NCBI GenBank assembly: GCA_026075535.2
Contig: AP026544.2
Coordinates: forward strand, 1,674,001-1,738,000
Origin: Tricholoma matsutake
Lineage: Eukaryota > Basidiomycota > Agaricomycetes > Agaricales > Tricholomataceae
Direction of reading: 5' to 3'
DNA length: 64,000 bases
The notes under the pieces are model-generated. The model saw nothing but the letters and a program-made list of their open reading frames with translations, did not search any database and was not told the origin of the DNA. Shown piece after piece: positions 3,639-64,000 of the stretch (positions within the stretch are counted from its first letter, which is position 1; each line of letters begins with the position of its first letter). The translations under genes and the position numbers were made by a program.

Positions 3639-4672
3639 ATGCTATCCCACTATACAAACCTCGAATCTGTGCCTTGCTGGCCATATAAACCTGACCCTGT
3701 TACTGCTGGCAAATTTGCTACCGCATTGAATCAAATAGAAGTCGAGCATCAGAGGAACACTGATTTCCTAGAGAACCCTCACCCTACAGTCAAACCTACT
3801 GAGTTCCATGAGCAGGCCATCGCTGCTCAACAGGTAGCTCATGATCTCAGCATTCAAGAGAGTACTATGGGACTACTACCAGCACGAAATGATCTAGCAC
3901 ATGGGCAGGAAGTGCTGTTGTATGGAACGTCACATCTCCATGCTGCAATCACTGCATGGATCCTTGCAGTAGATAATGATGAAGACTATGAAGAGTCACA
4001 GTTGGGGTGGGTGTCTGGCCTATTTTTTGAGACTGTAAGTGAACATATTGTGATTGCCAATTATCTGATCACCAATACCAACTTAGAAGGAATTCTTGAT
4101 GGCCACCGGAATTTATGCCTCTATGGGTGGCAGTGCTCCATACACTCCCCCACTCATCATGGAAACCATAAAGATGGTACAGGATGGGACTTTGTGGTGC
4201 TCAGAATGCAATGATCCTGAGGGCAAAGATTTTCTGGAACTAGAATACATTCCAGTGATACAAAGGTACTTGAAGGTTGATGCTGATGACCCCACCCATA
4301 TTATTGATAGCTATATCAATTCTTGGTGGAGTAAACAGAATGATCTGGAGAACTATGACTCATACCCATTTGCTCCACACAACTTCCTGGTGGTTCATCG
4401 GCCACAGGTGACTAACATGTTGTTGTCCTTTAATTTATCTTAAGTTTCATCAGATCCAGTTCACCTGGCAAGACCTATGGCCGGTCCCATATGCCACCGG
4501 TGACCTGGCCAAAATACAATTAATGATGAAGATCTTTGATGATCTGCATTTGACATGGAAAAGGATGACTGAGACAGTCCGAGAAAATGATGCCAAACTT
4601 CAGAAGGACAGGAAATTGTTGGCTTACTGGGAGGATGTGCGGAATCAGGTTAGGGAGCACCTTGACACTTAA
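3639..4672 (+). pseudogene. Gene D1, uncharacterised protein left of KDZ1 (frameshifted)
   Basis: From the ATG at 3639 the frame stays open to 4214 (MLSHYTNLESVPCWPY...). The message then appears to move to another frame at about 4195-4396 (DPEGKDFLELEYIPVIQRYL, IIDSYINSWW, YPFAPHNFL). After a probable intron it ends in a charged helical tail (TWQDLWPVPYATGDLAKIQL... ending at TAA 4670-4672). I do not recognise a domain. The PY/SY-x-x-x-WW motif is weakly reminiscent of gene D2 at 21354-22093, which has a similar place beside KDZ2, but motif order differs. It lies directly left of the repeat block at 4673, on the same strand as KDZ1. Whether it is one gene is uncertain. Confidence 0.4.
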
Positions 4673-5870
4673 CAAGTCATCTATGTAGGAAAAGATAAAC
4701 ATTGTAGTGACCAGTGCCGGTAGTGATAAAGTCACTTGTGGCGATAAGCATCCAAGTCAAGAGCTAAGTGAATAACTGGCACTGGTTATTGTAGAACCCC
4801 ATGAGCTACAAAAATGTGTATGGGCCTATCCTAAAATAATACAGGGAAATGGGCCCATATGAATGATACACTTGATGGAATGATCGGGTGGGCCCATGAC
4901 AGTAAAAGGAAAACAGTATGGGCCCACACGACTATAGCATACAGGACTTGAATTACTGCTGTTATTACAAATCATAAAGAATATATCCTAAAATAGTACA
5001 TTGTAGTGACCAGTGCCAGTAGGGATATACACAGGCATGTAACAGAAGAGAACAATCATTAGTCGAAGACAGTACTAATGTGCAATGAGAGTAGACGTAG
5101 ATTAATCCTGACACTGGCCAGAAAGCAACTGTCGCTTGTGTGGCAGTCAGCTATTTCCGAACTGTATCTCTCGGCACCGGAAAAGGTAAAGGCAGCACTG
5201 GTCATTCACATAGCTCTTAAAAGACTTGTATACTAATTGTGGCCGCTGTGCACTATAATATGGATAACAAATGCAGGAATGGTGACATGCTGTATGCTGT
5301 AGGAATGTGGGAGGATAAGGATATATGCAAAATCAGTACATTGTAGTGACTGGCACGCCGGTAGTGAAAGGTGCCTGGCGCCAGGAGTGAAAAGGTGACC
5401 GGCGCCGGTAGTGATAAAGTCACTTGTGGCGATAAGCATCCAAGTCAAGAGCTAAGTAAATGACTAATTGCAGCTGCTGTGCACTACAATATTGATAACA
5501 AATGCAGGAATGGTGACATGCTGTATGCTGTAGGAATGTGGGAGGATAAGGATATATGCAAAATCAGTACATTGCAGTGACCGGCGCTGGTAGTGATAAA
5601 GTCACTGGTGGCAATAAGCATCCAAGTCAAGAGCAAAGTGAATGACCAGTGCAGAATACATGCTAAAACAGTACATTGGGGTGATGGGCGCCGGAGAAGA
5701 CAATGTCACACTGATCATTCCCATAGCTCTTAGACTTGTACACTAATCGCCGCCGGTGGTCACTGATAACGAAAAGCAATGACATGCTGTAAAAGTAAGA
5801 AACTATTGACCAATGGGTATCACAAACACCGCCAGTGTAATTTTCCATTGGAAACATCGACAGTAGCTTT
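4673..5870. repeat. Left arm of long inverted repeat bracketing KDZ1 and C1
   Basis: This block is built from repeated words: GACCGGCGCCGGTAGTGATA, GTCACTTGTGGCGATAAGCA, GGGCCCA and CAGTACATTGTAGTGAC. About 4663-5250 matches the reverse complement of about 13530-14360, running collinearly through AAAGATAAAC, the GGGCCCA group, AATTACTGCTGTTATTACA, AATCATTAGTCGAAGACAGT and GGCAGTCAGCTATTTCC. A second level of direct repetition occurs at about 5260-5460 and 5500-5640 (AATGCAGGAATGGTGACATG in both). No gene is visible. The position and orientation suggest a terminal or subterminal repeat of a large transposon, or two opposed copies of one repeat. Confidence 0.75.
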
Positions 5871-6044
5871 GTGAGTATGACCTAGGTAACATGTTAGTAT
5901 GCTGTGTAGAACAGTCCCATAGTAACCTCTACATGGTACCATTGTCATTTACATCACCATGTTGCCATGTTTCCTCACTGCCTACAGTGCCTATATAATC
6001 CTGGAGATGCTTGTTCATGATTTTACATCGCTCTACAAACCATC

Positions 6045-9000
6045 ATGCCTAGAGGAACACACTCGCACCATCATTGGAAGAATCACCCAGATGACTGTCA
6101 TTCACTCCCAGACATTGCGGGGACCCAGGGATCGCCTTGTACCGGTTTGGCAAAGTCCTCAGTCAACTCCAAGGCATAAGAAGGCAAAGAGAAGTGCACC
6201 AGTGTCAGGATCGGCAACCACATCCAACACCAATATAACATCTCTGATGTCTGATGAACCAATTGAGCATCACGCTCTAAATTTCATTGCAGATCTTGAT
6301 CCCCCCTCTTCAAAGGTGACTTATTATGGCTACCACATTTACTATGCTAATATTACCCTCAGACACCTCAAGATTACATCGAAGAATGGTTGCCTAAAAA
6401 GGCCATGTATTTGGAAGCACTACTATCCAATGAAGTACCTGATTGCATGAAATGCAATTTGTGTGGGGATGATGCTGCTACCTGGCGATGTGGAGACTGT
6501 CTTTTCAATCCCATGTTCTGTACTGACTGCTGCCGTGATAACCATGCTTCTAACCCATTTCACCGCATCAACCACTGGACAGGTTCCTATTTTGAACCAG
6601 CTTGGTTGTTCCAAGTCGGGTTAGTTTTACATCTTGGTCACAATGGTGCAGTTACTTTCACCCATCGGCGCCAGATGTGGTTGGACAAGAGGCTGACAAT
6701 TATGAAGATGATTTGGATGATGCAACAGAAGGTGATGGAACCAACAACATTGTCAAGGAGATGAAAAGGTTTACCAGTGTTTATGACCTTGGTCCCACAA
6801 CTTTCCCAACACCGATGGATTGTCACAAATTGACAGTAATCAATGTTTCCAGTGTACATTGTATGTGGGTCAAGTGGTGTAATTGCCCTAATTCCTGTCA
6901 AGAGCAGGAAAATCACTTGTTGCAATTGGGGCTTTTTATGGTCAGCTACAAAAATATCAAGACCACGTTCACATTTAAAGTCCTCAATGATGCGCGATTG
7001 TCCAATCTGGAATGTAAATCTTCAGCCTATCAATACTACCAGAAGCTCCGGCGCATGACTTCACCCTTATTTCCTAGTGCCGTGGAGGTATGATTGATAT
7101 ACTACAGTTGTCAATATCTCTGACATCGGTACTTGAGGATTGATACAGGGAGCTTCTCAGGGCAAGCCAGCTATGGTGAATATTGAAACATTTGAAGTGG
7201 AGAGGCTGCTGGGGAGAATCACAGTCCAGTGCCGGCGGCTCATCGGTGGCTGCAATGCATGGTGCGACTGACATCCCAACATTCTGTGCTGCATGTCCTC
7301 AGCCTGGTGTCAATCTGCCGGAAGATTGGACCGAGGATCCTGACCAGTAAGTCAAATCGCATGAATTGGAATGTATTTAATGTAATCTTACCTCAGAATG
7401 GCATACACTTGGACTTTTGTCATGGATGGAAACTTCACCACTGTTCATCAGAAGCACAAAAATGCTCACCATGATATTAAGCTCAGTCATGGTGATTTTT
7501 TCATGACCAAGCTGAATCGCTACAAAGCACACCTCGCCGTTGCTAAGGAAGTCACAGAGGTAAGATATTTGAAAGACTTTCAGCATATTTACTAACTCCA
7601 AATTAGAAACTGACCTGCAATGAGCATCATGCTGTAAATGACCGCTTCATCAAATACAAGGGTCTTGATGTAACCAGTGTCGGTGCAACTGCTTGTGGCT
7701 GTCATGGTTGCTTCTGCCCCAGTGCGGTGGTTGACTTCCAAAAAGTGGAACAGTGAGATATCTTCACATTTTGAGAGACATTGTGTAATGTTTTCTAGAC
7801 AAGCAAACATAGACTATTCTTTATCTGAAGCCTTGAAAAACACTAATATCACCAGACTCAAGAAAATCATTTTGATTTATGATATAATGTGCCAGTATTG
7901 GAAGAGGCTCAGACTTCGGATGGAGGAGAGTCAGTATATCCAGCTACCACTCGGCATTGCCATTCTGCATGGTATTGGTCTTTTCCATGTCAGTGGCCAT
8001 GTCTGGCAATGTTTCTCACGCTTTTCACCGAGTTTCATTCCTGGTGCTGGACAAGTGGATGGAGAAATCCTTGAATCAGTGTGGTCAGTGTTGAATGAAA
8101 TCTCACCTAGTACCCAAAATGCTGCCATTTCTGGATGGATTGAAATCTTGGATGATCATATGGGGATTCCAACTTCAAAAAAATGCAGGACATAGGTGAA
8201 TAGATGTTTGTACCTTGTGCCAGATTGACTTGGAACCAGATGTAGTGGTTACCACTGCCCGCCGATTCAGAGCCGCTGTGGCAGATGAGGAGGAAAGTTG
8301 GGTGGACCTATTGCAGTACACGGCAAACTCAGACCCTGAGGAGATTGCAACCTGGAAAGAATTGGAAAAACACTCTCAGGCAACACATCTAACCAATCCA
8401 GAAGCAATGGACATCTATGATATAAACCCTGGTCAGGTAGTGGTCACACAAAGTGACCTTCAAATGAACCTTCTAGAGGATGAAGATGAAACCGGTGATG
8501 GAAAGGGTGAAACCACCTGGGTTGCTCTTGGCCTCAAACTTGAGGAAGCCCAGTGCATATCCAGCCATTGCAAAATATTCCTATGCTAACTAGTATCAGA
8601 CTGGCTCTTTGGACCTTTATATGTCAACAGTGTTTGGTGTTGTCCAAGGCCAATAAGCTGAAGATTGCAACAAAATGGCAAAACCTTGATACCAGAGTGG
8701 ATTCCTTCATTGCTAAATCAGAACAATTTGTGAACAATGACACATTGAATACACTGCAAAAGCTTAATGACTCGCCACTGAGACCAGTACTCCCATCACA
8801 AGCTCCCAATTACCAGACTAACTCGGATGACGATGATCAAAGCAACCCATTTATTACAAGGCCCCTGGTAGCAGCAGTCCATACCGCTGAAACACACCCA
8901 TTACCTCTTCCCTCTACATTTGGCTTTCCACAAATTACTCAGCTTGGTTTGGATTCCCTGGACAAGAAAGAGTTGAGATTGAGGGAAGGACAAGCAAATG

Positions 9001-9689
9001 ATGAGCTCCAGGGTGTTAGAATGGCCCTCGGTGAGAAATCTTTCTTATTCAGAAAGAATTTACATCTCGCCACCTCCAAGAACAAAAAGGGAAGGGCTTG
9101 GTCAAAGGTGCATGCTATTAGCCACTGGGTTCAAGCACATCATCAGGTATACAATGCTGCGAGGGCTGCAATGGTATCATTGGGATGTTCACCTGAGATG
9201 CAGTCCAAGTATCAGGTATTGCACTGGGACGAACTCAAGATTTCAACTGCTGCAGTGAGGGGTGGTACCGGCAATGCTGAGGGTAGAAGCTGGAGACAGG
9301 ATGAACCATTGCCATGGTTTTGGACCATTAATGTCCAAGCCGATGTCGAGGCAAGCGAAATGATGAAAGAATGTAAGTACACCTCAATTCACTTTAATGA
9401 GCGACTTCACTATTATTTAGTCTACAGGGTGCACTGGTTATGGGCGAATGCCAAACATGATAGATGGTCGGAGGAGTTATCAATTACTAGTCATGAAATG
9501 GCTTGGATCCCACATTATTTTCTTCACAGAGCAGAGGTCTGGGTTAACTGCTTGGAGACTCAGACCTCGCCGGGAGCTGTGGCATATACCAAACATCAGG
9601 CGGCAAACTGGAAAAGGATGGCCACTTCCTCTGTGCATATTTTCAAAGCCATACATCCATGGGTAGGAAATGTCTGGGGTTTTGAGTAG
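6045..9689 (+). pseudogene. KDZ1: KDZ-family transposase with CxC2 cysteine cluster (frameshifted)
   Basis: KDZ transposases are RNase H-fold DDE-type enzymes of large eukaryotic DNA transposons. The likely start is ATG 6045 (MPRGTHSHH). A CxC2-like zinc region lies at about 6450-6640 (CNLCGD, WRCGDC, FCTDCCRDNH, HRINHW, HLGHNG). The catalytic domain follows: VMDGNFTTVHQKHK (about 7420), GCHGCFCPSAVVDFQKVEQ (about 7710), YDIMCQYW (about 7878), FHVSGHVWQCFSRF (about 7984) and GAGQVDGEILESVW (about 8047). The C-terminal helical part runs to TAG 9687-9689. An intron at 7753-7798 restores frame neatly. Frame breaks near 6670, 8160 (a G-run one base short) and 8565 argue for a dead copy. The neighbour downstream on the same strand is gene C1. 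Confidence 0.85.
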
Positions 9690-10751: not shown

Positions 10752-13290
10752 ATGTCTGCTGAGGATGCTGATCAAAGCGGGGAAGACTTTGGCAGCTGTC
10801 CTTCAAGTTCTAGTGCAGAATTTCAACCAGTTGCCCATAAGTGGTCACCAGCAGAACTGAATGTGCTACGGCAACAAGTGGACGACTGGAAGACATCAAA
10901 AAACTGTAAAGTGCAACAACTAACCTTACAAGGTGCCATGACGGACTTATTTAATTTACCTGTTAGACCTCCAATGGATGGCCTGCAGGAAGTGAGCAAT
11001 AAGCCCTTGATGTATATTCTGCTCTTTGACAAACATGATTATCAGCGTGTTAGAGCTTGGTACAGACAAAATGCTTGCAAACCACCAAAGGCAGCGGTCA
11101 GCAAGGTCCCTCCATGGTGCAAAGTAATTATCCACCTGTATGGGTCAGAAATAGAGGCGGTGATTGGGCGGGAGGCTCCAGATCTGGAGAAAGGATGACC
11201 AGACTGGATGGCCAAATATTCGCAGCAATATGCCAAGGTCAACAAAAGAATCTCCAATGATTCAAAGGAAAACGCAAAGATTGAGGCACTTCAGCAACAA
11301 TGGATGAATACTGGCCCACCATCGGCTGTTCGGTGAAAGTACGTGTATTGCCCGTAATTCAGTAACTTGGCTGAATTGATCTTAGGGATGCCGAGAAAAT
11401 GCTCACAAAGTGTATAAATGAATTTCAAAATTCAATGTACCTTGAACTTGGGGTTCAAATGATTGTGTTGGGCAGTTGGGTAAATCCAGCAGGCAAGAGG
11501 AAGTGGAGTGTGTATGCCCATTCACCTGGCATTTAACAGCGACTAATGAAGAATTTGTAGGTTTGAAACAAATAGCTTTCTAGGCAACAATAAGCCAAAT
11601 TTCATTGCCGATGAACCTGGGTGGCATGAAAAGCCTATTGCAGACACATTCGGGGCATACATTGAGGAATATCTCACTGCTGATGAAGAGGAGAAATCAG
11701 TGATATGACCTGCTGGTGGGGCAAAGCCTAAACAAATCCTGGAGACTGGAGTGAAGGGACAGCCACTGCTACTGGCAAACTGTCTTATCTGCCACGGCGA
11801 CAATGCCCAGTTTTTGAACTACCAAAAACAAGTTTTACGGGCATACATTGAAAGGATGTACAGTGAGTGAACCATTTTTGATTAATGAAGATACTGATCC
11901 CCGGCAAGATTTAGCTGCAAGGAGAACCTCCGGTCATGTCCTGTGGCTTGATATTCACACATGGCAATCTGAATTTATCAACCAGGTGGACTATATGCCT
12001 CTGCAGAAAGGAGGAAAGAGCTGTGCAACTTCCTCGGTGCTGGGGAGATCACGAGCATCAACTGCGGCACCAGAAGACTCAGATGAATCACTGGATGAGG
12101 AGTTTGTATTATTGCGGGAACCATTGAAAATGCATAAACATGATATCGAGGCATGTTCTACCCATTAAATGGGAAGGCAGGAAGAAGGAAAGATTGGTTT
12201 CGAATTTACAAATGTCCTTAATTCATGGGAGGGAACACTTTGGCTGGCAGTTCGATTACAAGAACTTACAGACTTGGATGACATGGAGACCAAAGGAATG
12301 ACAGCAGCTCCACACAATCCGTCAAAGTGCAAACGAACCAAAAAGAAAACAAAAGGCAAATGGTCCAAGGCCACCACACAGCAACCCGCAAGTGAGAGTG
12401 CACCAGTACCGAAACAACAAAAGAAAAAGCAGCCCGACACTCCTCCACCGGCTATTACACCTATCAACCAACAAGCCGCTGGGTTAGCTCCACTGCTACC
12501 GGAAAACCTGATACCGCTGGAATGGGACCTTTTGGTCGATCCCATACTCCAGAAGGCACTCATTCCACCTGGCTGATACATAACAGCAGGGGATCACAAT
12601 ATTCTGGCGATGATGGGTTTGATGACCGGTCCTACAGGAGTCAACATGACAGAGCCTACCTACGCTAGCTATCTTGCAGATTTGGAGCATGGGGGTCATT
12701 TAATGAACAGTCTGGTTCCTGCATGGATGGAACATGGTAGTATCCATGATTCCACTGCACCTGCCCTCTGACCAGCCATTCAGCAAGGTCAAAATTCTCA
12801 CCAGAACATGACACTAGCTTCATTACTGATGGATACCATCCCTGAGGCAACATCAGTTGCTTCAACCGATAGGTAGCGTTGGATGAAAACACGATCAAGA
12901 TCCCACGCTCACAACACCGATGAAGTGACTACAACACAGGATGCTGGAACAAGTACACCAGCGGAAGGAAGCAAGGGAAAGCTGAAAAGAGCACGGTTGA
13001 ATGACCACAGATCCCGCACTCACAACACCGATGAAGTGACTACAACACAGGATGCTGGAACAAGTACACCAGTGGAAGGAAGCAAGGGAAAGCTGAAAAG
13101 AGCATGGTCAAATGACCACAATAGTCATGGCCAGCGGCCTAAAAAATCAAAGCCCAGCAACACTGATGTCCAAGTGATGAATGTGACAATGGATCCCAGC
13201 CTCTGTCCAAAGCCAAGACCAAAAGCTCATGGAGATGCATCCACTGACCCCCAGGATACATTTGACTTAAGACACCAACATGCACAATAA
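10752..13290 (+). pseudogene. Gene C1: KDZ-associated family C protein (broken, multi-exon)
   Basis: It starts at ATG 10752 (MSAEDADQSGEDFG) and has KWSPAELNVLRQQVDDWK at residues ~35-55. The frame has a TGA at 11196-11198 where reading continues as PDWMAKYSQQYAKVNKRI. Later pieces include a block near 11398-11510 (KCINEFQNSMYLELGVQM then VLGSWVNPAGKRKW), a block near 11580-11680 (FIADEPGWHEKPI), LNYQKQVLRAYIERMYS (about 11815-11865), EEGKIGFEFTNVL (about 12180), a Lys-rich segment (12340-12440) and a tail with a 37-residue tandem repeat (12911-13115). The blocks align with genes C2 (28032-30259) and C3 (61258-63145), so the family is real although I recognise no named domain. It lies between KDZ1 and the right inverted-repeat arm. 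Confidence 0.6.
12911..13115 (+). repeat. 111-bp tandem duplication in C1 tail (37-residue repeat)
   Basis: Two consecutive copies start at 12911 and 13022 with a period of 111 bases, an exact multiple of three, so frame is preserved. Each encodes HNTDEVTTTQDAGTSTP, then EGSKGKLKRA and NDH. The copies differ at only a few bases, which indicates a recent duplication relative to the decay elsewhere in the gene. Confidence 0.85.
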
Positions 13291-13299: not shown

Positions 13300-14745
13300 T
13301 TGGATATCACCGCGGTCGGTGGATAGGTTTTTTTTGGCACTGCCATGGATGCAATACATTCAATATATCCCTTATATATTTCATCTACTAATGAAATAAC
13401 CATGGATATATTCTTCAAACTATGTGCCCCTAAGTGCTGGTGCATTATCACTGCCGTTGTCACTACTATCACTGGTCCCTACAAAGTACCGTTTGTGTAT
13501 AGATTCTTTTATGAGAAGGGCCCATAGACATTTCCTTAGGTCATGTACAGTGACCGTCGCTGATCATGGCACCAGTCATTTGCTTAGCTCTGAACTTGTA
13601 TGCTTATTGCCCCTGGTAACATTATCACTACACCATGTCGGGCACCGACTTTATGTTTTCCGGTGCTGAGACATCCTGTTAGGAAATAGCTGACTGCCAC
13701 ACAAGTGACAGTTGCTGTCTGGCCAGTGTTAGGATTAATCTACATCTACTCTCATTGCACATTACTACTGTCTTCGATTAATGATTGTTCTCTTCTCTTA
13801 CTTGCCTGTGTATCTCCCTACTGGCGCCGGTCACTACAATGTATTGTTTTAGGATATATTCTTTATGATTTGTAATAACAGCAATAATTCAAGTCCTGTA
13901 GGCTATAGTCGTGTGGGCCCATACTGTTTTCCTTTTACTGTCATGGGCCCACATGATCTTTCCATCCAGCGTATCATTCATATGGGCCCATTTCCCTGTA
14001 TTATTTTAGGATGGGCCCATATGCATTTTTGTAGCTCATGGGGTTCTACAATAACCGGCACCAGTCATTCACTTAGCTCTTGACTTGGATGCTTATCGCC
14101 ACAAGTGACTTTATCACTACTGGCTCCGGTCACTTTATCACTCCTGGCGCCGGGCACTTTTCACCACCGGCACCAGTCACTACAATGTACTGATTTTGCA
14201 TATATCCTTATCCTCCCACATTCATACAGCATACAGCATGTCACCATTCCTTTGTTTGTTATCCATGTTCTAGTGCACACTGGCCATGATTAGCATACAA
14301 GTCTTTTAAGAACTATGTGCATGACCGGCGCCCACTTTATCTTTTCCTAAATAGATGACTTAAACCAGTATGGGCCCCCACAACTATAGCATACAGGACT
14401 TGAATTACTGCTGATATTACATTACAAATCTTTTAAGAGCTATGTGAATCACCTGTGCTGACTTTATGTTTTCTGGCGCCGAGAGATGCACTGAAGTCGT
14501 GTGGGCCCATACTGTTTTCCTTTTACTGTCATGGGCCCACCCGATCATTCCATCTGGCGTATTATTCATATGTGCCCATACACATTTTCTTAGCTCATAC
14601 AGTAACCGGTGCTGGTCATTCGCTTAGCTCCACTGTTATGCTTATGGCCACCGGCAACTTTATCACTACCAGCATCGGTCACTTCAATGTACATTTGTTG
14701 TATCTATCCTTGTAGCCTCCTTCCACATTCCTACAGCATGATGAA
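13300..14745. repeat. Right arm of long inverted repeat bracketing KDZ1 and C1
   Basis: This is the reverse complement partner of 4673-5870. It contains TGGGCCCATACTGTTTTCCT, GTCATGGGCCCAC, GACTTTATCACTACTGGC, ATTTGCTTAGCTCTGAACTT and GGCGCCGG words. The part from about 14360 to 14720 is a second, shorter direct copy of the 13840-14130 stretch (again with TCCTTTTACTGTCATGGGCC), so the arm is internally duplicated. No gene is seen. It ends about 65 bases before the stop codon of gene B1. Confidence 0.75.
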
Positions 14746-14810: not shown

Positions 14811-16106
14811 TTATGCCAGGGGTGTTGATGATTTCGAAGTCAAGATGGTGGTATCCGGCGGGAGGGGGTGCATTGGCATATTGTCTTTTGATATTGGATC
14901 TGGGGAGGTCGAAGTTGCACATGTGTCACCAAAAGAGGCGGCGTCAGCGATCACCGATGTAGCTGTGGTCATAATATTGGGAACAGGCGATGGTGGGGAG
15001 CAAATGGATTCATGCAAATGGGCTGGATTGATGAACATTGATGACTTCGGGAGATGGATCATCAACGGCACCGTGGCATCTGCATTCTGTGGATCTTCAC
15101 TTTCTGATTCCTCCTCGGAGCTTCCCTCTTTCTCCAATTTGGCCAGCTGCTTGTTTGTTGCTGCCAATTGACCACGCAACATGAAAACCTCCTGCTTCAT
15201 CTTCTCCAACTCCATCCCATTCCTCAACCCCCTCATCTCAGCCTCCAGCACTGGAATGCTCACCAGCACCTTTTCTCTCAACTCACCCATCTCAGCCTCC
15301 AATGCCGGAATGCTCACTGTCATCTTTTCCTTCAATGTGTTCAGAACTTCCATGTATCCACACAACATGAGGCTTTCCTTATCCAATTTCCCTTGATTTT
15401 CTGCCAAGACCAATACAAGCGTGCAGAGGTCTTGGAGCTCCTGTTGTAAACCACTGATGGTGGGCATGCGATTGGGATGGGTGACACGACCTGGTGGCGG
15501 TGGCACAGGAAGCGTGGTGTCAATGGATTGGGGGATCATGAGGCTTGTTGATGGGACAGGCTCAGGGGTTGGTATATGGTCGGAGATGCATGAAGTTGAG
15601 GGGACGGGGGCTGGTGTGACAGGGATGTACTCATCTGACTCACCAGTGGTGTCTGCTGCCCAGCGTTTTCTCTTTGGCGCCATTCTCGGTTGTTCACTTT
15701 CCTCTGCCTTCACCTTTTTCTTCCCAACGACCTTTTTTCTCCCCTTGAGCTCCCCTGCCACTATCAATTCATCCCACCGTGCTGTATGTGATGCTGTATA
15801 TGAGCATTTTGTCTTGCCCTTGTGGCACGTCACGCAAGCAATCTGGATGCCTGTCATTCGGCAGGCTGTCAGGCCCCTCAAACTGCAGGTGTCGCACAGA
15901 GCAGTGGGCCATTCCACAACAGACCTCCATATATCATCTTCAGGTAGAGCAGGAGTGGCCATCATGATTGGCAGGTTGGCATGGATGAATGGTGGCTCTT
16001 TTGTGACGTTGCTGTCCTCTGTTTCAGGCAGCACCAGCTGTGGCGACACCTTTCGGCATTTCGACTGAGGTGGAGCCAGGTGTTCTATGACCTTGTCACG
16101 ATTCAT
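14811..16106 (-). CDS. Gene B1: Zn2Cys6-like coiled-coil protein
   Basis: This is a single open frame. I prefer the ATG at 16106 (MNRDKVIEHLAPP) to an upstream non-ATG start, giving about 431 residues. Cysteines at residues ~71, 74, 82, 91, 94 and 101 (CDTC...C...CVTCHKGKTKC) give Cx2Cx7Cx8Cx2Cx6C, close to the fungal Zn2Cys6 pattern. A basic stretch follows (KGRKKVVGKKKVK, PKRKRW), then a Pro/Thr-rich linker and a long predicted coiled coil (about residues 205-330, with ELQDLCTLVLVLAENQGK, LKEKM, EMKQEVFMLRGQLAATNKQL), then an acidic SEEESESED run. The inferred role is a dimeric DNA-binding protein. It is the most intact member of family B and lies right of the inverted-repeat arm, opposite to KDZ1 and C1. 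Confidence 0.75.
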   Translation of the reverse strand: MNRDKVIEHLAPPQSKCRKVSPQLVLPETEDSNVTKEPPFIHANLPIMMATPALPEDDIWRSVVEWPTALCDTCSLRGLTACRMTGIQIACVTCHKGKTKCSYTASHTARWDELIVAGELKGRKKVVGKKKVKAEESEQPRMAPKRKRWAADTTGESDEYIPVTPAPVPSTSCISDHIPTPEPVPSTSLMIPQSIDTTLPVPPPPGRVTHPNRMPTISGLQQELQDLCTLVLVLAENQGKLDKESLMLCGYMEVLNTLKEKMTVSIPALEAEMGELREKVLVSIPVLEAEMRGLRNGMELEKMKQEVFMLRGQLAATNKQLAKLEKEGSSEEESESEDPQNADATVPLMIHLPKSSMFINPAHLHESICSPPSPVPNIMTTATSVIADAASFGDTCATSTSPDPISKDNMPMHPLPPDTTILTSKSSTPLA

Positions 16107-16149
16107 TCCTCGTCCACTCAGAACCCGCAACCTTCCGATCCTTTTCTGC

Positions 16150-16816: not shown

Positions 16817-18055
16817 ATGACCCCAACCGAAACTTTCCAGCGCACAACCAGAAACTCTCAGCGCGCCGGTACCATTCCAGGGATCTCTGCAATTCAGCAA
16901 TCCACACTTCCTAGCCCAAGACCCACTTCAACATTCAGAGTATCTTCCAGACCTTCCAACATTTTCCAACAAATCAGCTTCAGAGCCCCATCAATCAGTG
17001 CAAACCTCATGTCTACTCAAGCTCAACAATCTTTGACAAATCTGGAAGAACCCCGACCCACAACCCCCCTTGAGTATGTAGGGGACATCAACCAGCCTGA
17101 ACCCTATGGGTTGGAAGATCATGGTCTAGAGGACGGTCCTCCTGGTGGACCCGATGACCCTAGCGGTCTGGACAGCCCTGGGGGTGACCCTGATCCCAAG
17201 GACCCTGACGATCAACCTCCCACAACCCAAAGAAACTTAGAGACTTCCTAGTCTTGTGTAACCTTCATTTCGGCGACCGTCCGCACATATTTTCTTCTGA
17301 TGAGAAAAAGATCATATTTATCCTTTCTTATCTCAAGGGATCAGCTCTCAGTTGGTTTGAGCCCGGCCTTAATGACCCTACTGATTCCACACACTGGATG
17401 TGGGATTATGAGGCTTTCTTCGCCGAGCTAGAGAGCAACTTTGGCCCTCATGACCTGGTCAGGGATGCGGAAAAAGCTCTTTCCGACTTAGCAATGAAGA
17501 AAGGTGGTCGCATCACAAAGTATAACGTTGACTTCTGGGAGTTAGCTTCTAGGGTCAACTGGAATGAGGCAGGCCTAGGTGACCGCTATTTCTGCGGTCT
17601 GCCACTCCAACTTTGAATAGAAGTCCTTCGGGGAGGTAAACCCGACACCCTTGCAGGACTGCACTTGAAAGTGCAGGACTGTGATGACATCTACTGGATG
17701 CAGGAAGATGAAACCCGGTTGAAACTAAGAATTCTGGGAATTCTTCTAACCCTGCCAAGAAGGACACCCCCAAAAGCTCCTCCCAGTCCACCAATCAATC
17801 CTCGTCGAGCTCTCCTCAGAGAAGTTCCTCCAACCAGCAGTCCTCCACATCACAGAACACTTCCAAGTCATCCATCTCCGATAAATTGGGGCAGAACGGC
17901 AAACTTACTGCGGATGAACAAGAACGTCGCATGCGGGAAAGACTTTGCCTCTACTGCAGTGAAGAAGGGCATGTAGCAGGAAACTGCCCGAAATCTAAAG
18001 CCGCAAAAGCCTGCACACCAGCTGTGATTCCCAATTCTGCGGACTCGGAAAAATA
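16817..18055 (+). pseudogene. Ty3/gypsy element 2 gag (frameshifted)
   Basis: ATG 16817 starts a Pro/Ser/Thr-rich N-terminus with an acidic, glycine-proline segment (PGGPDDPSGLDSPGGDPD). Near 17225 the frame shifts into the retrotransposon gag domain (LCNLHFGDRPHIF, LKGSALSWFEPGL, AFFAELESNFGPHD, at 17254-17616, ending with an early TGA). A CCHC zinc knuckle, CLYCSEEGHVAGNC (Cx2Cx4Hx4C), follows at about 17945-17990 in yet another frame. Order and motifs are those of chromoviral gag. Several frame breaks make it inactive. Confidence 0.85.
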
Positions 18056-18112
18056 GTCCGCAACCCTCAGGATACAGCCATTAGGGCTGGGGGTTGCGTT
18101 GACCTTACCCAT

Positions 18113-22665: not shown

Positions 22666-22667
22666 GA

Positions 22668-51878: not shown

Positions 51879-51954
51879 GTAGATACAATGGACCAATCCA
51901 ATCATGTTATAGTTCTAAGTGCCCTTTTTTAGTAACCCCAATTGCCCAAATGCA

Positions 51955-54237
51955 ATGCTCTGGCTGTTTTCAAGTCTTTGCTGTCTACCTTTGCCATTGT
52001 GGATTTTGCTGGGTCTTAGTTTTTTGCCCACAGCTGCTGCATTGTCAGAATTCAGCCCATTTCCAGAATTGACTTTCCTTTCACTCAGTCAATTCATCCA
52101 GAAAAACTTCCCAGATGACATCTCACTCTCAACAGTTTTATTACTGTTGTTTACAATGACTGAAAATCCCGATCTTCTCAGTTTACGTGCAAGACAACAG
52201 TATTTGCTTGCAAAAGGAGAAAACATATCTACCATCAACAGTTGGATCAAAAGCTTGTCACGGGCAGTACATGCAAAAGTGAACAACAGTGTATCCCTAT
52301 TGCATGAATCTGACCAGTATGAAGGCATTTCTGAAAACCACATTGTCAGCAACATTGCAACCAAACTTGATGAATTGGCATGGCACTTGGGCCTCATCAA
52401 ATACAACAAAAAGGGCCATCTAAAGACTGCTCTCAAGCCAATATTATATACAGCAATTGACGCTGTGCATATCATTTGTCCTCAATCATATCAATGTGTC
52501 ACAAGTGGATGTGGATTTCGGTCTCTGGTTCAGACACCCAAACAAAGAGACATTCCCCTGGTAACACTTGTGAAGAATAATACCACTCACAAGGATGTTC
52601 CAGTTCTTACTGGAAGATGCCCCAATTGCATGACATTATATAGTGCCGATCATGAGCGCACTCCAGAAATCAATGAAGAGAACCAGTTCACCAGCTTGTA
52701 TTTGAATTCTGCTAAATTCCTCAAAGTTGGTCAAAGTGTATGGGTTGATCGGGTTTTCTCAAATGCTGTTGTGAATGCCATGTACAGCTTTCATGCTTCA
52801 GCCTCATCATACATGGAATTCTGGAACAATTCTTTTGGAAAAACACAGCAACATGGGTTTCATTGGATGTCACATCATCAAATATGGCAGGCCTTTGTTC
52901 AAGAGTCCATCCACACCATTGCTGGTTCTGCTGATACAGAGCTGTCAGTTCAGGATAATCTTGCAATTGGTGAAATTACAAAAGAAGCTTTCTCAATTCT
53001 TGGTGAAAATGGAGTTATCAGAGCTGCAGATCAACATGCTTGTTCAGAATGCACTCATGACTACATTGCAACAACTGCTGATACTGCTCCAACTGCTCTT
53101 TCTGCTGCTGTGGTTGGAGTTGATGAGGTTGAACAATCCTCTCCACAACCTGCCGATTCCAGTTCTTCATCATCTTCTGGTTCAACATCTGCATCCACCT
53201 CTGAAGATGGCATGGACATTGACAAAGCACCAGTAAAGATGGTAGTTGTTGATGGAACATGCTTTGGGCCAAAGCACTGTGCTTATGAAAACTGTGCAGA
53301 TGATCTCATAAACTATCGTGGTGCCATCTTTTGTGCAATACATGAACAAGCCCATGGTGCAAAATGCCGTGTTCACAACTGTGACAATGAAAAAATCAGA
53401 GCAACACAAGCATGTCAACAGCATCAGCCACAATGGAAGAAATACATTGCTCAACACAAAAGACAATCTGCACCTGGTTTCCGAAGAATTACACAAAGGC
53501 CAGCTGAAAACCTGCCATGGATTTCAAGAAATGAGCAAACTGAACAACCACATGATGAACCAATGGAGGAAACAGAGCACAAAAATTATTTCAGTGCTCC
53601 TAGCTTTTACTGTGTTGAAACAATATGTGCACCATGTGGTGTTGTGGTTGCCTGGGCAAATTTTCCAAAGGCTGAATCACCAACCAATATTTTGGCATTT
53701 TTGGAGAAGGTTTTTCATACTGAAGAGTCCAGACCAGATTACATTTGCATTGATAAAGCATGTCTGGTACTTCGAACTGCGCTCAGGAATGGATCATGGG
53801 AAAGGCCATGGGAAATGACAACATGATTTATTGTTGATGCTTATCATTACATCAACCACCAAGATGATGATGAACTTTGCAAGAAATGGTGTAATCCTGC
53901 ACCAGCAGATGGCTCTGCACCTAATCTGGTTGTTGAAGCCAAAGATAAACAAGGCAAATCTTGTTTCAGATGTGCATTCAACACACAGGCAAGCTTTTAT
54001 ACTTGTTTCATGTAACAATAATACTGACTAACATGCAACAATCAGGCTTGTGAACAGTTAAATGCATGGATGGGAGGATATGAATCAACGTTGAAGAAAA
54101 TGACAGCTGGTAACTTCAACTGGTTTCTGCATAGCATGCTATTTTATCATACTAGACATGTTATTGCAAAACAAGAGGAAAAGGCAAGTAAGGCAAACAA
54201 TAGTGATAGTGATAGTGATAGTGATGATGACATGTAA
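51955..54237 (+). pseudogene. KDZ-clan gene with CxC5- and CxC6-like clusters; single internal TGA
   Basis: ATG 51955 is chosen over upstream non-ATG codons. Residues ~1-150 are hydrophobic then helical. A CxC5-like cluster lies at residues ~175-225 (CPQSYQCVTSGCGFRSL, GRCPNCMTLY). A Ser-rich linker precedes a CxC6-like cluster at ~435-490 (CFGPKHCAYENCADD, CAIHEQAHGAKCRVHNC, ACQQHQPQW). The C-terminal RNase H-like part has FYCVETICAPCGVVVAWANF, then IDKACLVLRTAL. TGA 53824-53826 stands before FIVDAYHYINHQ, CKKWCNPAPADGS and PNLVVEA. A GC-AG intron (53989-54045) leads to the last exon, ending TAA 54235-54237 after an Asp-Ser run. Apart from the TGA (one step from CGA) it is intact. Confidence 0.8.
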
Positions 54238-56800: not shown

Positions 56801-56869
56801 GGTAAGCTACATTGTATCAAATGATACGACCTATCAAATGTATACATTGTATCAAATGATACAGGTTTG

Positions 56870-57600: not shown

Positions 57601-57712
57601 CAGGACCACAAAAACAATGATATTACTACAATGATGTGCATTAAGAACAGAATACAGACAAAAGCTACATAGATGTATATATAATGAGTAAGGTATTAAT
57701 CATCCTTCCACA

Positions 57713-58637: not shown

Positions 58638-60714
58638 ATGAACATTACAGCTCAACAAGTCCTTGGCCACATCAGCCAGATCAAGCAGGCCATTCAAAAT
58701 GGCCTTCAAACATGAAACATCAAGGCCATCATGAGGGAACAAAAATGGGCACTTGTAAGTAAAATACTATCAGGACGACAGTGGGACTAATATACTGTAG
58801 AACACATTATTTTCATGGCAAAGACAGGATCTCGGGGAGGTTTTGAAAGCGACATTCAGTGCCAAGTCTTTCTTGTGGGGTTTTTTGGTAGCATGGGGAA
58901 GTTCTGATAGAACGGGGGATGAGATTTTCATGGAAGGTCAGCTGTGTGCAATGAAGAAATTTGATGAGAAAGGTGGGATTGTGGGAACCTCAGGGGGTTT
59001 GGCATCGGGAGCAGGAGGTGGAGTGGCTGCTGGTCCTTCAAGATCAGGAGTGGGAGCAGCAGGTGGGGGTGCAGGAATGGGAATGGGAACAGGAGCGGGA
59101 GTGGGAGCTTGAGGGGAGAGCAGGCAAAGGAAACCACAGGTGCCAGTGGAGCCATCGGGATCCAGGTCACGCCAGCCAGAACATCAACACCCAGATGCAT
59201 GCCCATCAGCACCACCCACTCCAACCACTCCAGCAAGACCAAGTGGGAGTGGCAGGACCAGGTGGCTTCAGAGCAGCAGTGGGAGCTCTGGTGAGGATTT
59301 AGAAAATGATGGGGAATCAGAGGGGACAGAAAGCAATGGAGATGGATTGTTGGAGCGAAAGGAGCAAAGGGAACAATGCCGACAACCAGCACACGGGGCA
59401 GTAAGGCCCACTCCCTGCATATGATGCTTCCGGCTTGGGCAACAATGTCACAAACAGGTCAATGGGAAGGGCCCATGTTTCGAATGTGGGAAGGGCAAAG
59501 TCAAGTGCAAAAAAATGAAAGATGGTCATGGAGGGGACAAGCCAGAGAAAGGAAAGGGTGCAGCCAGAAGAAAGGTGAAGAAGGCTGGATCCTCATGGAG
59601 AGGAAAATTGAAGCGTTAAGTACTATGTATCACCATACAAATAACCACTGAACATTGACCACAGCAACATATTCCTCCGACATCGAGATGGTTGACGTCG
59701 CACACGAACTCCCACCCTTGCCCTCTCCCTCACCCTCTCCTGCTCCTGTGACTGCTGGGGAGCTCCATGACTTCAACAACCATATACAAGAACTGGAGCA
59801 TCATCTGTACAGTCAGAGTGATTGGCTCCATCAGAACTTCCCCAGAGCAATGTCCAACATACAGGAGAATATGGCCAGCTTGAGCAGGAGGATGGATGAG
59901 ATGGAAGAGTACATGGGGTTCTGCCCACAACCCCTTGTGTTGTACAATGGTGCAGGTGAGCTGCACTATCTTGGAGAGGGTCCAAGCTATAGGCAAAGAT
60001 ATGGTATGGAGGTCAATGAAGATGAGCAGGATGTTGGGGCCACTGTTTGGGAGGATCACTGGCACATGGCTTGATGCTGATAGTGAGGAAGATAGACATG
60101 AGGTGGCTGGGCCTGAGGAAGACAGAGGCAAGGTTGCTCCCACTCCCACTCCTGCCCCCATTCCCACACTTCCATCTGCTGCCCCACCTCCCACTCCCAC
60201 TCCCATTCCTGCACTTGCACCCCCACCTGCCGCTCCTGCTCCCACTCCTGCCCCCATTCCTGCACTTCCACCTGCTACCCCACCTGCCACTCCTGCACTG
60301 CCACCTGCTGCTCCCACACCTGCACTTCCACCTGCTGCCCCACATGCCACTCCCGCTCCCACTGGGCTTGAGGAAGAAGGACATGGTCCTCAAATCAAGG
60401 TCATCCCTGCCACGCTGCAAGATTCTCAGGAATCAGTTTAATGTATGACCTCTGTGGATGTGCCCCTTCCTCCCCTCCTTCAACCCACCTCAATCCCCAA
60501 TGCTGACCCTGTGGAACCAGTAATGGTATCCACCAGCAATGTGTTCGTACTACCCGCCCCTCCTTCACCACTGGCATCGCATTCCCCTCCTCCTCCACAA
60601 TTATGCCAGTCCCCTTGCCATTTGTCACCCACCCAGCCTTCGAGAAGTACCACCCCTCAGCCAAACCTGAAGATGAGAGTGGGAACATCCGAGGACAGAG
60701 AGGAGGTCAAATGA
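58638..60714 (+). pseudogene. Gene B3: Zn2Cys6-like coiled-coil protein (several stops)
   Basis: ATG 58638 (MNITAQQVLGHISQIKQAIQ) is followed by TGA 58713-58715, then KAIMREQKWAL and a GTAAGT donor. The next exon has LKATFSAKSFLWGFLVAWGS, Gly-rich sequence and a TGA at 59110-59112. The zinc region (59416-59500) is CI-stop-CFRLGQQC then CFECGKGKVKC: Cx2Cx6Cx9Cx2Cx6C with TGA 59422-59424 inside. It continues with a Lys-rich segment, an intron joining TYSSDIEMVDVAHELP, a coiled coil (HIQELEHHLYSQSDWLHQNF, NIQENMASLSRRMDEMEEYM) and Pro/Ala repeats (60140-60360), where the frame has shifted. It has the same order as B1 and B2. It is adjacent to C3. Confidence 0.65.
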
Positions 60715-61257: not shown

Positions 61258-63145
61258 TCAAGGTATAAGATACTGTGGTTCACCATTACCTGGACCATTA
61301 ATTGGCTGTGGCTGAGCGACACCAGCTCTACAGAGTATGTCCATTGTCATTTGATGGACTTGTACATCATTCAACAGAGTTGCACTTGTGTTCAAGTTGT
61401 GTTCCTGTTCTGCCATCGACCTTTGGCCAGGTTTCTTTGGCTTGGATTTGCCTTTTGCAGCTTTTATGGCTCTTGATTGTGAATGTGGGTTGGGTGAAGA
61501 TGCAGCTAAGCCTTGGGCTTGGACCTCGGGGTCAGGCATGGGCATGGGCATGGGAGCAGGAGCGGATGAGTCAGCACTGGCCACTGGGTTGTCTGCACCA
61601 GGCATGGCAGCGGGGGAGTCTACATCGGGCCCAGCAGCAGCATCTGCATTATGTCGGCCAGTGTGTTTGTGCATCCATCGAGAAGGTGTAGGGCTATTCA
61701 AATCATTAGAATATTGTGCAGGAGAGACACTACCATCGTGTAGCTTGATTCTTTTGAACCTGAATGCCTTCTCAGGGCCCTGTGCCATTTGCCACTGCAG
61801 AATGTGGTCAAAGAAGTCGTCTATGACACTCTTTTGCATGTTCCATGGGTCTGTCCATTTGAACCTGGCTGGGAGATATTCAGGATTGATGAATGTCAAT
61901 GTGTGCTCGGCAATTGCTGTGAATGGGACATGGTGAGTACGACCATTGTTTGCTAGTTCTGCATGCAGATAAGTAACAACTCATTGAAAAGGAAGTGATC
62001 ATACTGTAATGCTGCCCAACATACAACTTAAACCATTCCTCCAGCTCTTTTTTCTTGTACAGTGAGCCTTTCCATGGTGTGGGTAGGATGGGGAACCCAT
62101 CACTAGTCATCTCAAGTCAGATTTGTGTTGAGTCACCATGCGCTGTTGACCTTGAAGCAATGTCTGATGCACGTAAAGCCTTGATATAGCCCATGAAGTG
62201 GTGCTTGAGCTCTGTGATCTCATTATTATATGTGTCCTTGAAGGATTGTGCAGGGGTGGCCATCAACGATGAAATATTTTTGTGACTGTGATTGGGAGCG
62301 GGATCAGCAATGGCAGCGGAATATTTTCACTCACGCATCAACAACCATCAAACCATCAGGTGCAGTGTAGGCTGTGAATGTCACAGAAAGCACCCCCACT
62401 TCTAGCCACTGTTGTCATGCAGTCTCCTCCACATGCTTAACCAGGTTCTTCTCTGCTCGACTGCGAAACATCAATAACATCATTGGCAGCAGCAATGGCA
62501 ACAGCAACAGGTTAACATACATTCACTTTGTTTTCTCTGGATAACCTTCCCCCTTGATTTTCTCCTGCTCAGCCTCAAGCACTGCCTTTTCCTCTGCAGT
62601 CATGCTTTCAAAAACCCTCTTGATGGCTGGCAGTCAGTTCTGGAACCATCCAGCCATACTTGTGGATGCATCCTGAACACCTAACATATCTCCAATCTCT
62701 TTCCAAACTTGGTCCTGGTGTAAGCTCCAGATCACTTCTGATCACTTCACTTTGAAGTTGTTTGACTTCCTTGAGGAGCCTTTCGTCATTTGCTAGTTGT
62801 TTGAAAGCCAGTTTGTTAGTTCCTAGCAATGTGATCAATAATACAACATTGAATGGGATGATAGCCAACCTTGGCATGCATGCAACTCTCCTCTGGATCT
62901 ATTGGGGTCATCTCAATTGACGCCCAGTAATTAAAGATGGTGGGGAGAATGTCAGTCTTGAGTATTTGCAATCAGGCAGCTTTTGATTCCTGAGATCGGA
63001 ATCCATCTTTATAAGGCTTGATGATCTTCCGCTCTTTGACCGTATATCAGCTCCCCTTCCAGTACCGTCTGTGTCCTGGGTTCTCTGATGGCTCAGGTGG
63101 CATTGGAGGGGATTGATGTGGAGGAAGGAATTGTCCTTGCCATTG
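61258..63145 (-). pseudogene. Gene C3: KDZ-associated family C protein (decayed)
   Basis: Read right to left. From about 63110: GHRRYWKGS, a stop, YTVKERKIIKPYKDGFRSQ, LKTDILPTIFNYWASIEMTP. Then 62850-62610: LAFKQLANDERLLKEVKQLQ, GWMVPELTASHQEGF. Then about 62460-62340: AEKNLVKHVEETA, a stop, QQWLEVGVLSVTFTAYTAPD. Finally an open frame at 61899-61258 reads INPEYLPARFKWTDPWNMQK, DFFDHILQWQMAQGPEKAFR, a Pro/Ala/Met-rich low-complexity stretch, and KGKSKPKKPGQRSMAEQEHN to TGA or end at 61258. The blocks align in order with C1 and C2. It points away from KDZ3, whose start is about 100 bases off. Confidence 0.6.
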
Positions 63146-63243
63146 GCTTCACTTGTTATTTGGCATGAGGATCACATGAGGATCACATGAAGTCAATAGT
63201 ACAATAAATAGCCCATCACCACAATTGATTCCCCCCAATCATC

Positions 63244-64000
63244 ATGAGCCTGACAAAAGCTCCTTACAAGCAAAAGAGAAGATCAAAGAACAATGCCACC
63301 CTGCATGAGGATGATGATGGTGCAGTGGATACTGTCACACATAAGGAAGTTGAGGTCAACACGGGACATGGACCAAAAATGAAGCATATCAAGGTTCCCT
63401 TTCTGGTTACAAAAGAATGTGGTGAATTGAGTTCAGCTGGTATCCATGACAATCCAGGTCTTGCTCCAGAATGGGATATGCAAGAACCTCAGGTGGCCCA
63501 TAAGCCGGTTCAGCCACAGATTTGCATGGTCAGTTTCTGACATTGATTGACTTACCGAGGCTCATGTACAAATAACAGAAGCAGCGAGACTATGTCTTGG
63601 AGTTTGTCAGATGAATAGATGAGCTGCTGCAAGCATCCCTGTCTCGGCAGGCATGGTCAATCGACAAACAAGTTTGCAATCACTGTTCATTCAATAAATG
63701 GGCAATTTGGAGATGTGTCAATTGTTCGCTAGGAAGAACACTTTGCCAAACATGTATGTGGGTAACACACAGGCAAAATCCCTTCCATCACATTGAATCT
63801 TGGACTGGCATGCACTTTTGCAGGGCCAGGTTATGGGAGGTTGGCACATACCTCTTGGTTCAGCACCAGACAGATCAACCAATTTGCAATGCTCTTCAGT
63901 TCCAAATGGAATATCTGGAAACATTCAAGGACATGAAGGATAAAGCAGAACAAGAGTCGGCCAATTGGGAAGGTGATGATCAGCATCAGCCTTCATCACA
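63244..64000 (+). pseudogene. KDZ3: N-terminal part of a third KDZ transposase with CxC2 cluster (runs off window)
   Basis: Exon 1 is 63244-63528 (MSLTKAPYKQKRRSKNNATL ... VQPQICM), with an intron at 63529-63578 (GT-AG). Exon 2 begins KQRDYVLEFVR, then a TGA, IDELLQASLSRQAW and the cysteine cluster CNHCSFNKWAIWRCVNC, LGRTLCQTCMWVTHRQN, HHIESWTGMHFCRARLWEVG. This matches the CxC2 regions of KDZ1 and KDZ2 position by position, including the (R)DY helix before it and the W after the HxI motif. The catalytic domain would lie beyond 64000. The TGA could be TGG or CGA changed by one base. Confidence 0.82.

Follow-up and report, generated by a model that had tools for sequence, protein, structure and literature searches.

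KDZ transposons make up a large and little-studied share of mushroom genomes, and those that carry TET are thought to escape methylation. The Kyakuja DNA transposons of Agaricomycetes, some of which are TET-positive, were reportedly described by Iyer et al. in 2014. In plants, En/Spm encodes an accessory DNA-binding protein, TnpA, beside its transposase, and has short, subterminal repeats.

We took the KDZ transposase domain (PF18758) and a zinc-chelating CxC cluster as the marks of KDZ transposons, and 5'-CA..TG-3' termini without terminal inverted repeats, together with a 7-bp target-site duplication, as those of Kyakuja. Two Laccaria Kyakuja families are reported to start with CA in the accessible part of a recent account (Kojima 2025, PMC12730594), according to which TET transposons encode no extra protein, such as a glycosyltransferase, that would modify the base further. 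A TIR motif is mentioned for KDZ or Plavaka elements in an accessible section of another paper (PMC8290104). The Cryptococcus KDZ1-3 elements, of about 9-11 kb and shown to move, share the KDZ transposase with the elements described here; unlike these, they carry CxC1, and their terminal inverted repeats measure 139-241 bp; in the accessible text the transposase is the sole gene named (PMC12810828). VANDAL/VANC is similar in being a multi-gene DNA transposon with a fast-changing accessory gene and family-specific non-coding motif arrays. Its transposase and proteins are different, the accessible text describes no catalytic demethylase, and the anti-silencing effect is demonstrated there, whereas for the matsutake families it would be a prediction (PMC5735166, PMC10398659). 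How TET/JBP would find its own element is not addressed in the accessible portions of the KDZ transposon literature.

The window (the whole stretch of 64,000 nucleotides analysed here) is part of chromosome 7 of T. matsutake, assembly TMA_r1.1; unclassified repeat makes up 25.4% of this genome in the assembly listing. It holds three modules, each a copy of a different high-copy KDZ transposon family. An earlier note on this DNA had described three KDZ genes, each with a gene C adjoining and a gene B next to C, and all are present as described. Read with B first, every module runs B, C, KDZ. The features are as follows.

2826..2839, + strand: left end of element 1 (family 1), CACACTGTTCAGTA, placed where homology to other copies stops
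3639..4670, + strand: gene D of element 1, without a Pfam match above cut-off
4699..5652, no strand: repeat array of element 1, inverted relative to 13520-14739 (self-comparison)
6045..9689, + strand: KDZ1 transposase gene, with CxC2 in 6596-7093 (Pfam, 2e-18) and KDZ core in 7674-8195 (Pfam, 2.5e-23)
10752..12301, + strand: C1, several exons, in-frame stops (profile homology)
13520..14739, no strand: second repeat array of element 1, between C1 and B1 (self-comparison)
14811..16118, - strand: B1, N-terminally shortened, with Zn2Cys6-like motif and coiled coil (by eye)
17999..20260, + strand: pol frames of an LTR retrotransposon, right of B1, with RT and RNase H domains in 19118-20257
22658..23389, no strand: array A of family 2, with two inverted arms, built of the 13-bp unit ACCCGACAAAATG
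23401..26769, - strand: KDZ2 transposase gene, with CxC2 in 25906-26769 (Pfam, 2.5e-19) and KDZ core in 24875-25237 (Pfam, 1.7e-22)
28043..30120, + strand: C2, several exons (profile homology)
30344..31145, no strand: array B of family 2, between C2 and B2, 13-bp unit as in array A
31224..33297, - strand: B2, with frame changes and a Zn2Cys6-like motif in which one Cys appears as Ser (by eye)
51919..53826, + strand: fourth KDZ-associated gene, CxC5 and CxC6 (Pfam)
59113..60441, + strand: B3, coiled coil preceded by a Zn2Cys6-like motif that an in-frame stop cuts (by eye)
61261..63130 (ends approximate), - strand: C3, several exons (profile homology)
63229..64000, + strand: start of the KDZ3 transposase gene, which continues past the window in locus L010

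PF18758 is above cut-off and CxC2 is present in each of KDZ1, KDZ2 and KDZ3, the Pfam matches of KDZ3 (CxC2, 1.3e-16; KDZ core, 9.8e-19) lying in the next 10 kb past the window, in L010. The families resemble Kyakuja in the KDZ transposase, the CxC2 cluster, the CA left end (family 1) and a TET/JBP gene beside KDZ (family 2). Unlike TET-positive Kyakuja, families 1 and 3 are as a rule without an adjoining TET, and B, C, gene D and the 13-bp arrays find no mention in the accessible part of the Kyakuja account (PMC12730594).

Our preferred reading, held with moderate confidence, is that the modules are multi-gene, Kyakuja-like elements of the form KDZ-C-B, in which B and C are accessory genes acting on DNA and not host cargo. 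Modules 1 to 3 would be copies of three large families of such DNA transposons, each family having a transposase and two non-transposase genes in the order KDZ-C-B and replicating as a multi-gene unit of which B and C are part. We read B and C as accessory genes encoded by the transposon, probably with a DNA-binding function. B would most likely bind DNA sequence-specifically, as a coiled-coil protein with a Zn2Cys6-like motif, and C would be a further accessory protein working with it; both may act on the element's own DNA, serving its excision or its expression. The TET/JBP protein, which is present in one family, would help against cytosine methylation.

Throughout the genome the linkage of these genes is far above that obtained by rotation, and C is not found mainly away from KDZ. 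KDZ lies within 15 kb of 215 of the 309 typed C places (rotation mean 21.8, maximum 34 of 200), B lies within 12 kb of 206/309 (mean 13.1, maximum 26), and B and KDZ are linked at 167 of 281 B places (mean 25.9). One or other partner, KDZ within 15 kb or B within 12 kb, is found at 272 of the 309 C places, which supports, within this genome, the earlier proposal that B and C are fixed companions of these KDZ genes. The relative strand of C and KDZ at linked places varies among families, being the same in family 1 and opposite in families 2 and 3: upstream of C there is a same-strand KDZ within 12 kb at 76/94 C1 places, and an opposite-strand KDZ at 47/65 C2 places and 77/150 C3 places (C3 among the matches listed). 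B nearly always faces C in the linked sets, with KDZ on the other side of C. It is opposite to and downstream of C in 61 of 64 linked cases for C1, 45 of 45 for C2 and 88 of 88 for C3, these being drawn from 94, 65 and 150 places respectively.

Counting from KDZ, C1 lies within 12 kb of 79/92 KDZ1-family places, C3 within the same distance of 79/150 KDZ3-query places, and C2 within 15 kb of 46/58 KDZ2 places. The module rule of the earlier note describes these families but not every KDZ gene: among the matches listed, neither C nor B occurs within 20 kb of 154 of 391 KDZ places, and only 44 of the 150 KDZ places scoring best with Pfam have one within 15 kb. Such absences are upper bounds, C3, B3 and KDZ being represented by the matches listed only. 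The fourth KDZ-associated gene of the window, which the earlier note does not list, likewise has no C or B place listed between 34000 and 59000.

The typed places comprise 94 of 105 matches for C1, 65 of 78 for C2 and 150 of at least 150 for C3, 94 of 109 for B1, 56 of 66 for B2 and, among the matches listed, 131 of 151 for B3; rows taken for further pieces of one place were left out. KDZ places are the best 150 of 165 with Pfam, 148 of at least 150 with the KDZ1 query, 150 of at least 150 with the KDZ3 query, and the first 58 of 150 rows with the KDZ2 query (at least 57% identity by eye, leaving out C1:11058546 at 54% and KDZ1- and KDZ3-like rows). For TET all 61 matches were used.

Homology among the C genes, which the earlier note had expected to exceed that of shuffled sequence, does so for C1-C2 (profile alignment E 2.5e-5) and C2-C3 (E 4.3e-5), both above all 40 column shuffles, and fails to do so for C1-C3 (17.4 vs 20.0, 40 shuffles). 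The family likeness that it saw among the B proteins stands for B1-B3 (E 2.7e-5, above 40 column shuffles), is weak for B1-B2 (E 0.017; score 26.8, shuffle maximum 21.1), and is not found for B2-B3, which falls within the shuffles (18.7 vs 24.1, 40 shuffles). The unrelated pair C2-B1 gave a null result. On these alignments, homology across the families is partly chained. Relatives were added for this comparison, in which B2 and B3 stood as single sequences. B2 was assembled from two frames, and B3 ended in a piece that lies past a stop and outside the aligned part. When fewer sequences were used, C2-C3 scored 38.7 (shuffle maximum 31.3) and C1-C3 gave no signal. Protein searches gave 7 relatives for C2, 16 for C3 and, among the best 7994 candidates scored, 10 for B1, all in records that carry no gene order.

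The Zn2Cys6-like region of B, also put forward in the earlier note, is a six-Cys spacing seen by eye only. Its scores stay below the Pfam cut-off for Zn_clus (21 bits) in B1 (13.9) and in the sequences P0026 (18) and P0028 (11.6), and Pfam does not list the domain for P0027. Structure predictions are of low trust, with a mean pLDDT of 40 for the C1 N-terminus and 53 for a C3 relative (14 sequences). Searched against PDB sequences, the C3 alignment found nothing and a B relative a single match at E 0.39. The N-terminus of C was considered, by eye, as homeodomain-like, a reading that was dropped for lack of support.

B and C diverge faster than the KDZ core in the family-3 sets, while the order is kept. 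Identity to the window copy in family 3b is 84.5% for the KDZ core, 66.6% for C3 and 33.4% for B3 (20 sets), a contrast exaggerated by comparing a catalytic core with other exons, and obtained from sets (20 of family 3b, 7 of family 3a) selected by hand among those with all three genes. In family 1, pN/pS is 0.34 in C1 exon 1, 0.79 in C1 exon 2 and 0.70 in gene D; two intergenic controls gave 0.79 and 0.86. The results are mixed and confounded by CpG change, and constraint shows only in part. When family-1 copies are compared with the window, 2193 of 5039 differences are CpG against TpG or CpA.

For element 1, 20 C1 loci were fetched, chosen randomly among the 59 places with score ranks 2-60. 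KDZ1 is at the expected place in 19 of these; the odd one, L026, has only a KDZ1 fragment, which lies 8.6 kb away in reverse orientation. Matching DNA for gene D is present in 17 of 20 fetched family-1 loci. Homology ends at 2823-2827 in 11/20, the other nine breaking off at other points, and CA is located at 2826. The 11 loci have this end in common and unlike flanks (TACACTG in L018). No inverted match over 14 bp to the left end was found in the window, L009 or L010. The right end and the target-site duplication were not found: the 7 bp left of the element, looked for after TG, have no exact copy, and there are two one-mismatch matches between 16000 and 30000. A break common to L009, L033 and L011 at TGTTAGGAAACC was rejected as an element end, being a shared insertion. 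B1 is 447 aa in the window, compared with open frames of often about 563 aa in other copies, and the adjacent LTR-retrotransposon may have caused the shortening.

Family 2 is the main TET/JBP-bearing family genome-wide, with TET at a constant position. KDZ2 lies within 12 kb of 41 of the 61 TET places and C2 is near 46 (rotation mean 1.1, maximum 4); TET, KDZ2 and B2 are all near 30 C2 places. C1 is within 25 kb of none of the 61 TET places, and C3 of three. The window copy of family 2 gave no TET match. The TET genes lie outside the window.

Repeats occur in or beside all three window modules, those of families 1 and 3 being less regular than those of family 2. The 13-bp unit of family 2 contains one CpG and has no occurrence in the window outside the two arrays, where the central dinucleotide of 57 units is CG in 20, CA in 22, TG in 13, TA in one and TC in one. 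A 32-base array pattern, which admitted only CG, TG, CA and TA centres, has 681 exact matches genome-wide and none in the control. The first 100 of these, grouped by hand into 13 clusters, all adjoin family-2 genes, and family 2 therefore has element-specific motif arrays in non-coding DNA, as far as these 100 matches go. Five clusters lie between C2 and B2 and one just past C2 with no B2 listed; six lie between KDZ2 and TET and one just past KDZ2 with no TET listed nearby.

These observations allow other readings of B and C. Within a family, most full-length copies are 75-98% identical to that of the window, and all copies come from one genome, so that they do not count as independent cases; only the three families and their subfamilies do. 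The linkage could then be mere copying of three elements after one capture of host genes or passengers, and riding along does occur, as the DDE_Tnp_4 insertion described below illustrates. We regard this as very unlikely, because homologous B and C stand in equal order beside KDZ cores that are only about 36-50% identical between families, which would need repeated capture at the same place. The same recurrence gives B and C the appearance of long-standing genes of the element, and the word cargo used in the earlier note is wrong. A possible, if somewhat unlikely, role is that of co-factors like TnpA of En/Spm, with B and C binding the repeats and assembling a complex that is cut by the KDZ transposase; the arrays would be binding sites for excision. 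The DNA-binding look of B, the fixed order and the presence of repeats at all three modules fit such a role. Unlike the subterminal repeats of En/Spm, however, both arrays of element 1 (4699-5652 and 13520-14739) are internal, the left end at 2826 being 1.9 kb outside the first.

Alternatively, B and/or C might bind family-specific arrays and cause local loss of methylation in the manner of VANC, using TET in family 2 and host factors in families 1 and 3. The family-2 arrays, whose units are confined to them within the window and whose 13 clusters all lie beside family-2 genes, point this way, as do the large CpG share of the differences among family-1 copies and the faster change of B and C relative to the KDZ core; the accessible VANC reports offer a precedent of motif arrays with rapid co-divergence (PMC5735166, PMC10398659). 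On the other hand, families 1 and 3 usually lack a listed TET in their neighbourhood, their arrays are less regular, the genome-wide pattern was itself restricted to four centres, and the arrays could be transposase sites or transcription ends. We consider this role unlikely. Its narrower form, an anti-silencing kit of TET/JBP, fast-evolving B and C and 13-bp CpG-bearing address arrays in one family, is more doubtful still; B and C would there bring TET/JBP to the arrays, and families 1 and 3 would keep the addressing genes without the enzyme.

For annotation, the analysis adds three element families and two families of genes that lack a Pfam model. With two accessory genes in a fixed place and, beside TET, a CpG repeat specific to the element, the question of how the enzyme would find its element becomes directly testable.

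Locus L031 has an extra 3 kb between KDZ2 and C2, which was considered as a further element gene and rejected, since it is a DDE_Tnp_4 insertion of about 3.0 kb, presumably of Harbinger type. Such an insertion, read in L031 only, would, if present in many family-2 copies, fit the C2-KDZ2 spacing, whose median is 7.2 kb compared with 4.1 kb in the window.

The genome searched is an assembly of 161,040,721 bases in 13 contigs, with the window on chromosome 7 (for the Tricholoma matsutake assembly TMA_r1.1, see the available portion of PMC10211490). B1-3 and C1-3 were found at the positions where the earlier note had placed them, next to KDZ1, KDZ2 and KDZ3, all three of which pass the Pfam cut-offs for both a CxC2 cluster and a KDZ core. 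For the C and B frames searched, no Pfam family passed its cut-off. The Zn2Cys6-like region proposed for the B proteins is seen in B1 as a stretch of 13.9 bits, below the Pfam cut-off of 21; two relatives score 18 and 11.6 bits there, and a third has no listed match. The window also contains a fourth gene associated with KDZ:

51919-53826, KDZ-associated gene carrying the clusters CxC5 and CxC6 (Pfam)

This gene is of another kind than KDZ1-3 and has neither C nor B nearby among the matches listed. Just left of the window (C7:1664001-1674000) there is a further family-3 KDZ and C3 pair, with no B found in that locus. Repeat sequence at 36520-37143 of the window is matched in the first 625 bases of that locus.

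Searches with exon queries gave 105 matches for C1, 78 for C2 and at least 150 for C3, 109, 66 and at least 151 for B1, B2 and B3, and at least 165 for KDZ; rows that looked like extra pieces of one place were omitted from the typed places. The corresponding B lies within 10 kb of 64 of the 94 C1 places, 45 of the 65 C2 places and 88 of the 150 C3 places listed, and is opposite and downstream in 61/64, 45/45 and 88/88 of these. KDZ is upstream of C, on the same strand and about 3.0 kb off for C1 (76/94 places), and on the opposite strand for C2 (about 7.2 kb, 47/65) and C3 (about 3.4 kb, 77 of the 150 listed). Seen from the transposase, C1 is within 12 kb of 79 of the 92 KDZ1-family places, C2 within 15 kb of 46 of the 58 KDZ2 places, and C3 within 12 kb of 79 of the 150 KDZ3-query places listed.

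When places were rotated within contigs (200 rotations), the linkages observed were far outside the chance range: C-KDZ 215/309 (rotation mean 21.8, maximum 34), C-B 206/309 (13.1, 26) and B-KDZ 167/281 (25.9, 41). Copies within one family share descent, and the independent evidence is therefore that the order recurs across families. The association of B and C with KDZ is upheld for these families but may not extend to KDZ genes as a whole: 154 of 391 KDZ places have no C or B within 20 kb, and only 44 of the best 150 by Pfam have one within 15 kb, among the matches listed in both cases.

Homology between families was assessed by profile alignment, with exons joined, copies and metagenome relatives included where obtained, and 40 shuffles each; the profiles are shallow, and B2 and B3 are represented by one sequence each. 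C1-C2 (E 2.5e-5, score 43.7, best shuffle 25.0) and C2-C3 (E 4.3e-5, 42.7 against 21.3) exceed all shuffles; C1-C3 falls within them (17.4 against 20.0). B1-B3 scores 45.1 against 22.7 (E 2.7e-5), part of which may be owed to coiled-coil composition; the B1-B2 match is weak (26.8 against 21.1, E 0.017), and B2-B3 (18.7 against 24.1) and the unrelated control pair C2-B1 (17.5 against 18.2) are inside the shuffle range. The three families share about 36-50% identity in their KDZ cores.

Similarity to the window ends at 2823-2827 in 11 of the 20 family-1 loci fetched, and breaks off at other points in the remaining nine. The common left end of element 1, the module-1 copy, is CACACTGTTCAGTA (TACACTG in locus L018), and the flanks preceding it differ. 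Two Laccaria Kyakuja families have 5'-CA..TG-3' termini and 7-bp target-site duplications (Kojima 2025, available part of PMC12730594). A right end of element 1 was looked for and not found. Given the end at 2823-2827, a further gene belongs to this element, which also has two arrays:

3639-4670, gene D of element 1; 17 of the 20 family-1 loci fetched have DNA that matches it
4699-5652 and 13520-14739, repeat arrays of element 1, matching each other in inverted orientation

Gene D has no Pfam family above cut-off. The window's B1 is shorter than in many other copies, and is followed by retrotransposon pol frames. Inverted repeats also lie either side of the B3-C3-KDZ3 module (window 56796-57628 and locus L010 4977-5974), and are possible outer arrays of element 3. 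Of the 5039 differences between the window and the family-1 copies, 2193 pair CpG with TpG or CpA, a sequence pattern which suggests that family-1 elements may be methylated.

Within family 1, pN/pS is 0.34 for C1 exon 1 and 0.79 for exon 2, 0.70 for gene D and 0.52-0.59 for parts of KDZ1; the intergenic controls give 0.79 and 0.86. Identity to the window copy is 92.3% for the KDZ core, 88.4% for C3 and 84.7% for B3 in family 3a (7 sets), and 84.5%, 66.6% and 33.4% in family 3b (20 hand-picked sets), a contrast that is partly built in because the KDZ query is the most conserved part of KDZ.

Family 2 has arrays of a 13-bp unit:

22658-23389 and 30344-31145, family-2 arrays of ACCCGACAAAATG

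The 57 units counted, with one mismatch permitted outside the centre, have the central dinucleotides CG (20), CA (22), TG (13), TA (1) and TC (1), and none occurs elsewhere in the window. Methylation of CpG and the decay of methylated sites would be expected to leave centres of CG, TG and CA. Genome-wide there are 681 occurrences of a 32-base pattern that has centres of this kind, and 0 of the same pattern reversed. The first 100 of these matches, grouped by hand, form 13 clusters, of which five are between C2 and B2, six between KDZ2 and TET/JBP (a DNA-demethylating enzyme), one just beyond C2 with no B2 listed, and one beyond KDZ2 with no TET listed nearby.

TET/JBP has 61 matches genome-wide. 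A C2 place lies within 25 kb of 46 of them (500 rotations: mean 1.1, maximum 4), KDZ2 within 12 kb of 41, and C2, B2 or KDZ2 within 25 kb of 51; the corresponding 25-kb figures are 0/61 for C1 and 3/61 for the C3 places listed. TET, KDZ2 and B2 occur together at 30 C2 places, and the median span there from TET to B2 is 16.8 kb. The window's own family-2 copy has no TET match.

We favour the view that B and C are putative element-encoded DNA-binding accessory proteins. They might serve excision. Alternatively they might serve anti-silencing, which is attractive because family 2 unites the enzyme, the arrays and fast-changing proteins. Iyer et al. 2014, reportedly the founding Kyakuja paper, may hold a prior mention of genes like B and C. 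Such genes are undescribed in the available portions of the Kyakuja literature examined (PMC12730594, PMC12810828, PMC8290104, PMC12062965). Plant VANDAL elements likewise have arrays, together with VANC proteins (PMC5735166, PMC10398659, both in part).

Between KDZ2 and C2, locus L031 carries an inserted DDE_Tnp_4 (Harbinger-type) stretch, about 3.0 kb long (about 3307-6339 of that locus), which the window copy lacks (27024-27035). The common KDZ2-C2 spacing of 7.1-7.2 kb suggests that many family-2 copies may carry it. There is also a second TET-bearing subfamily (C8:5331197, C4:7940142, C6:195212, C3:9959151, C6:6911273), in which B2 is absent nearby among the matches listed, the C2 relatives are at 43-46% and the KDZ2 relatives at 69-70%, and the TET nearby is oriented opposite to KDZ.
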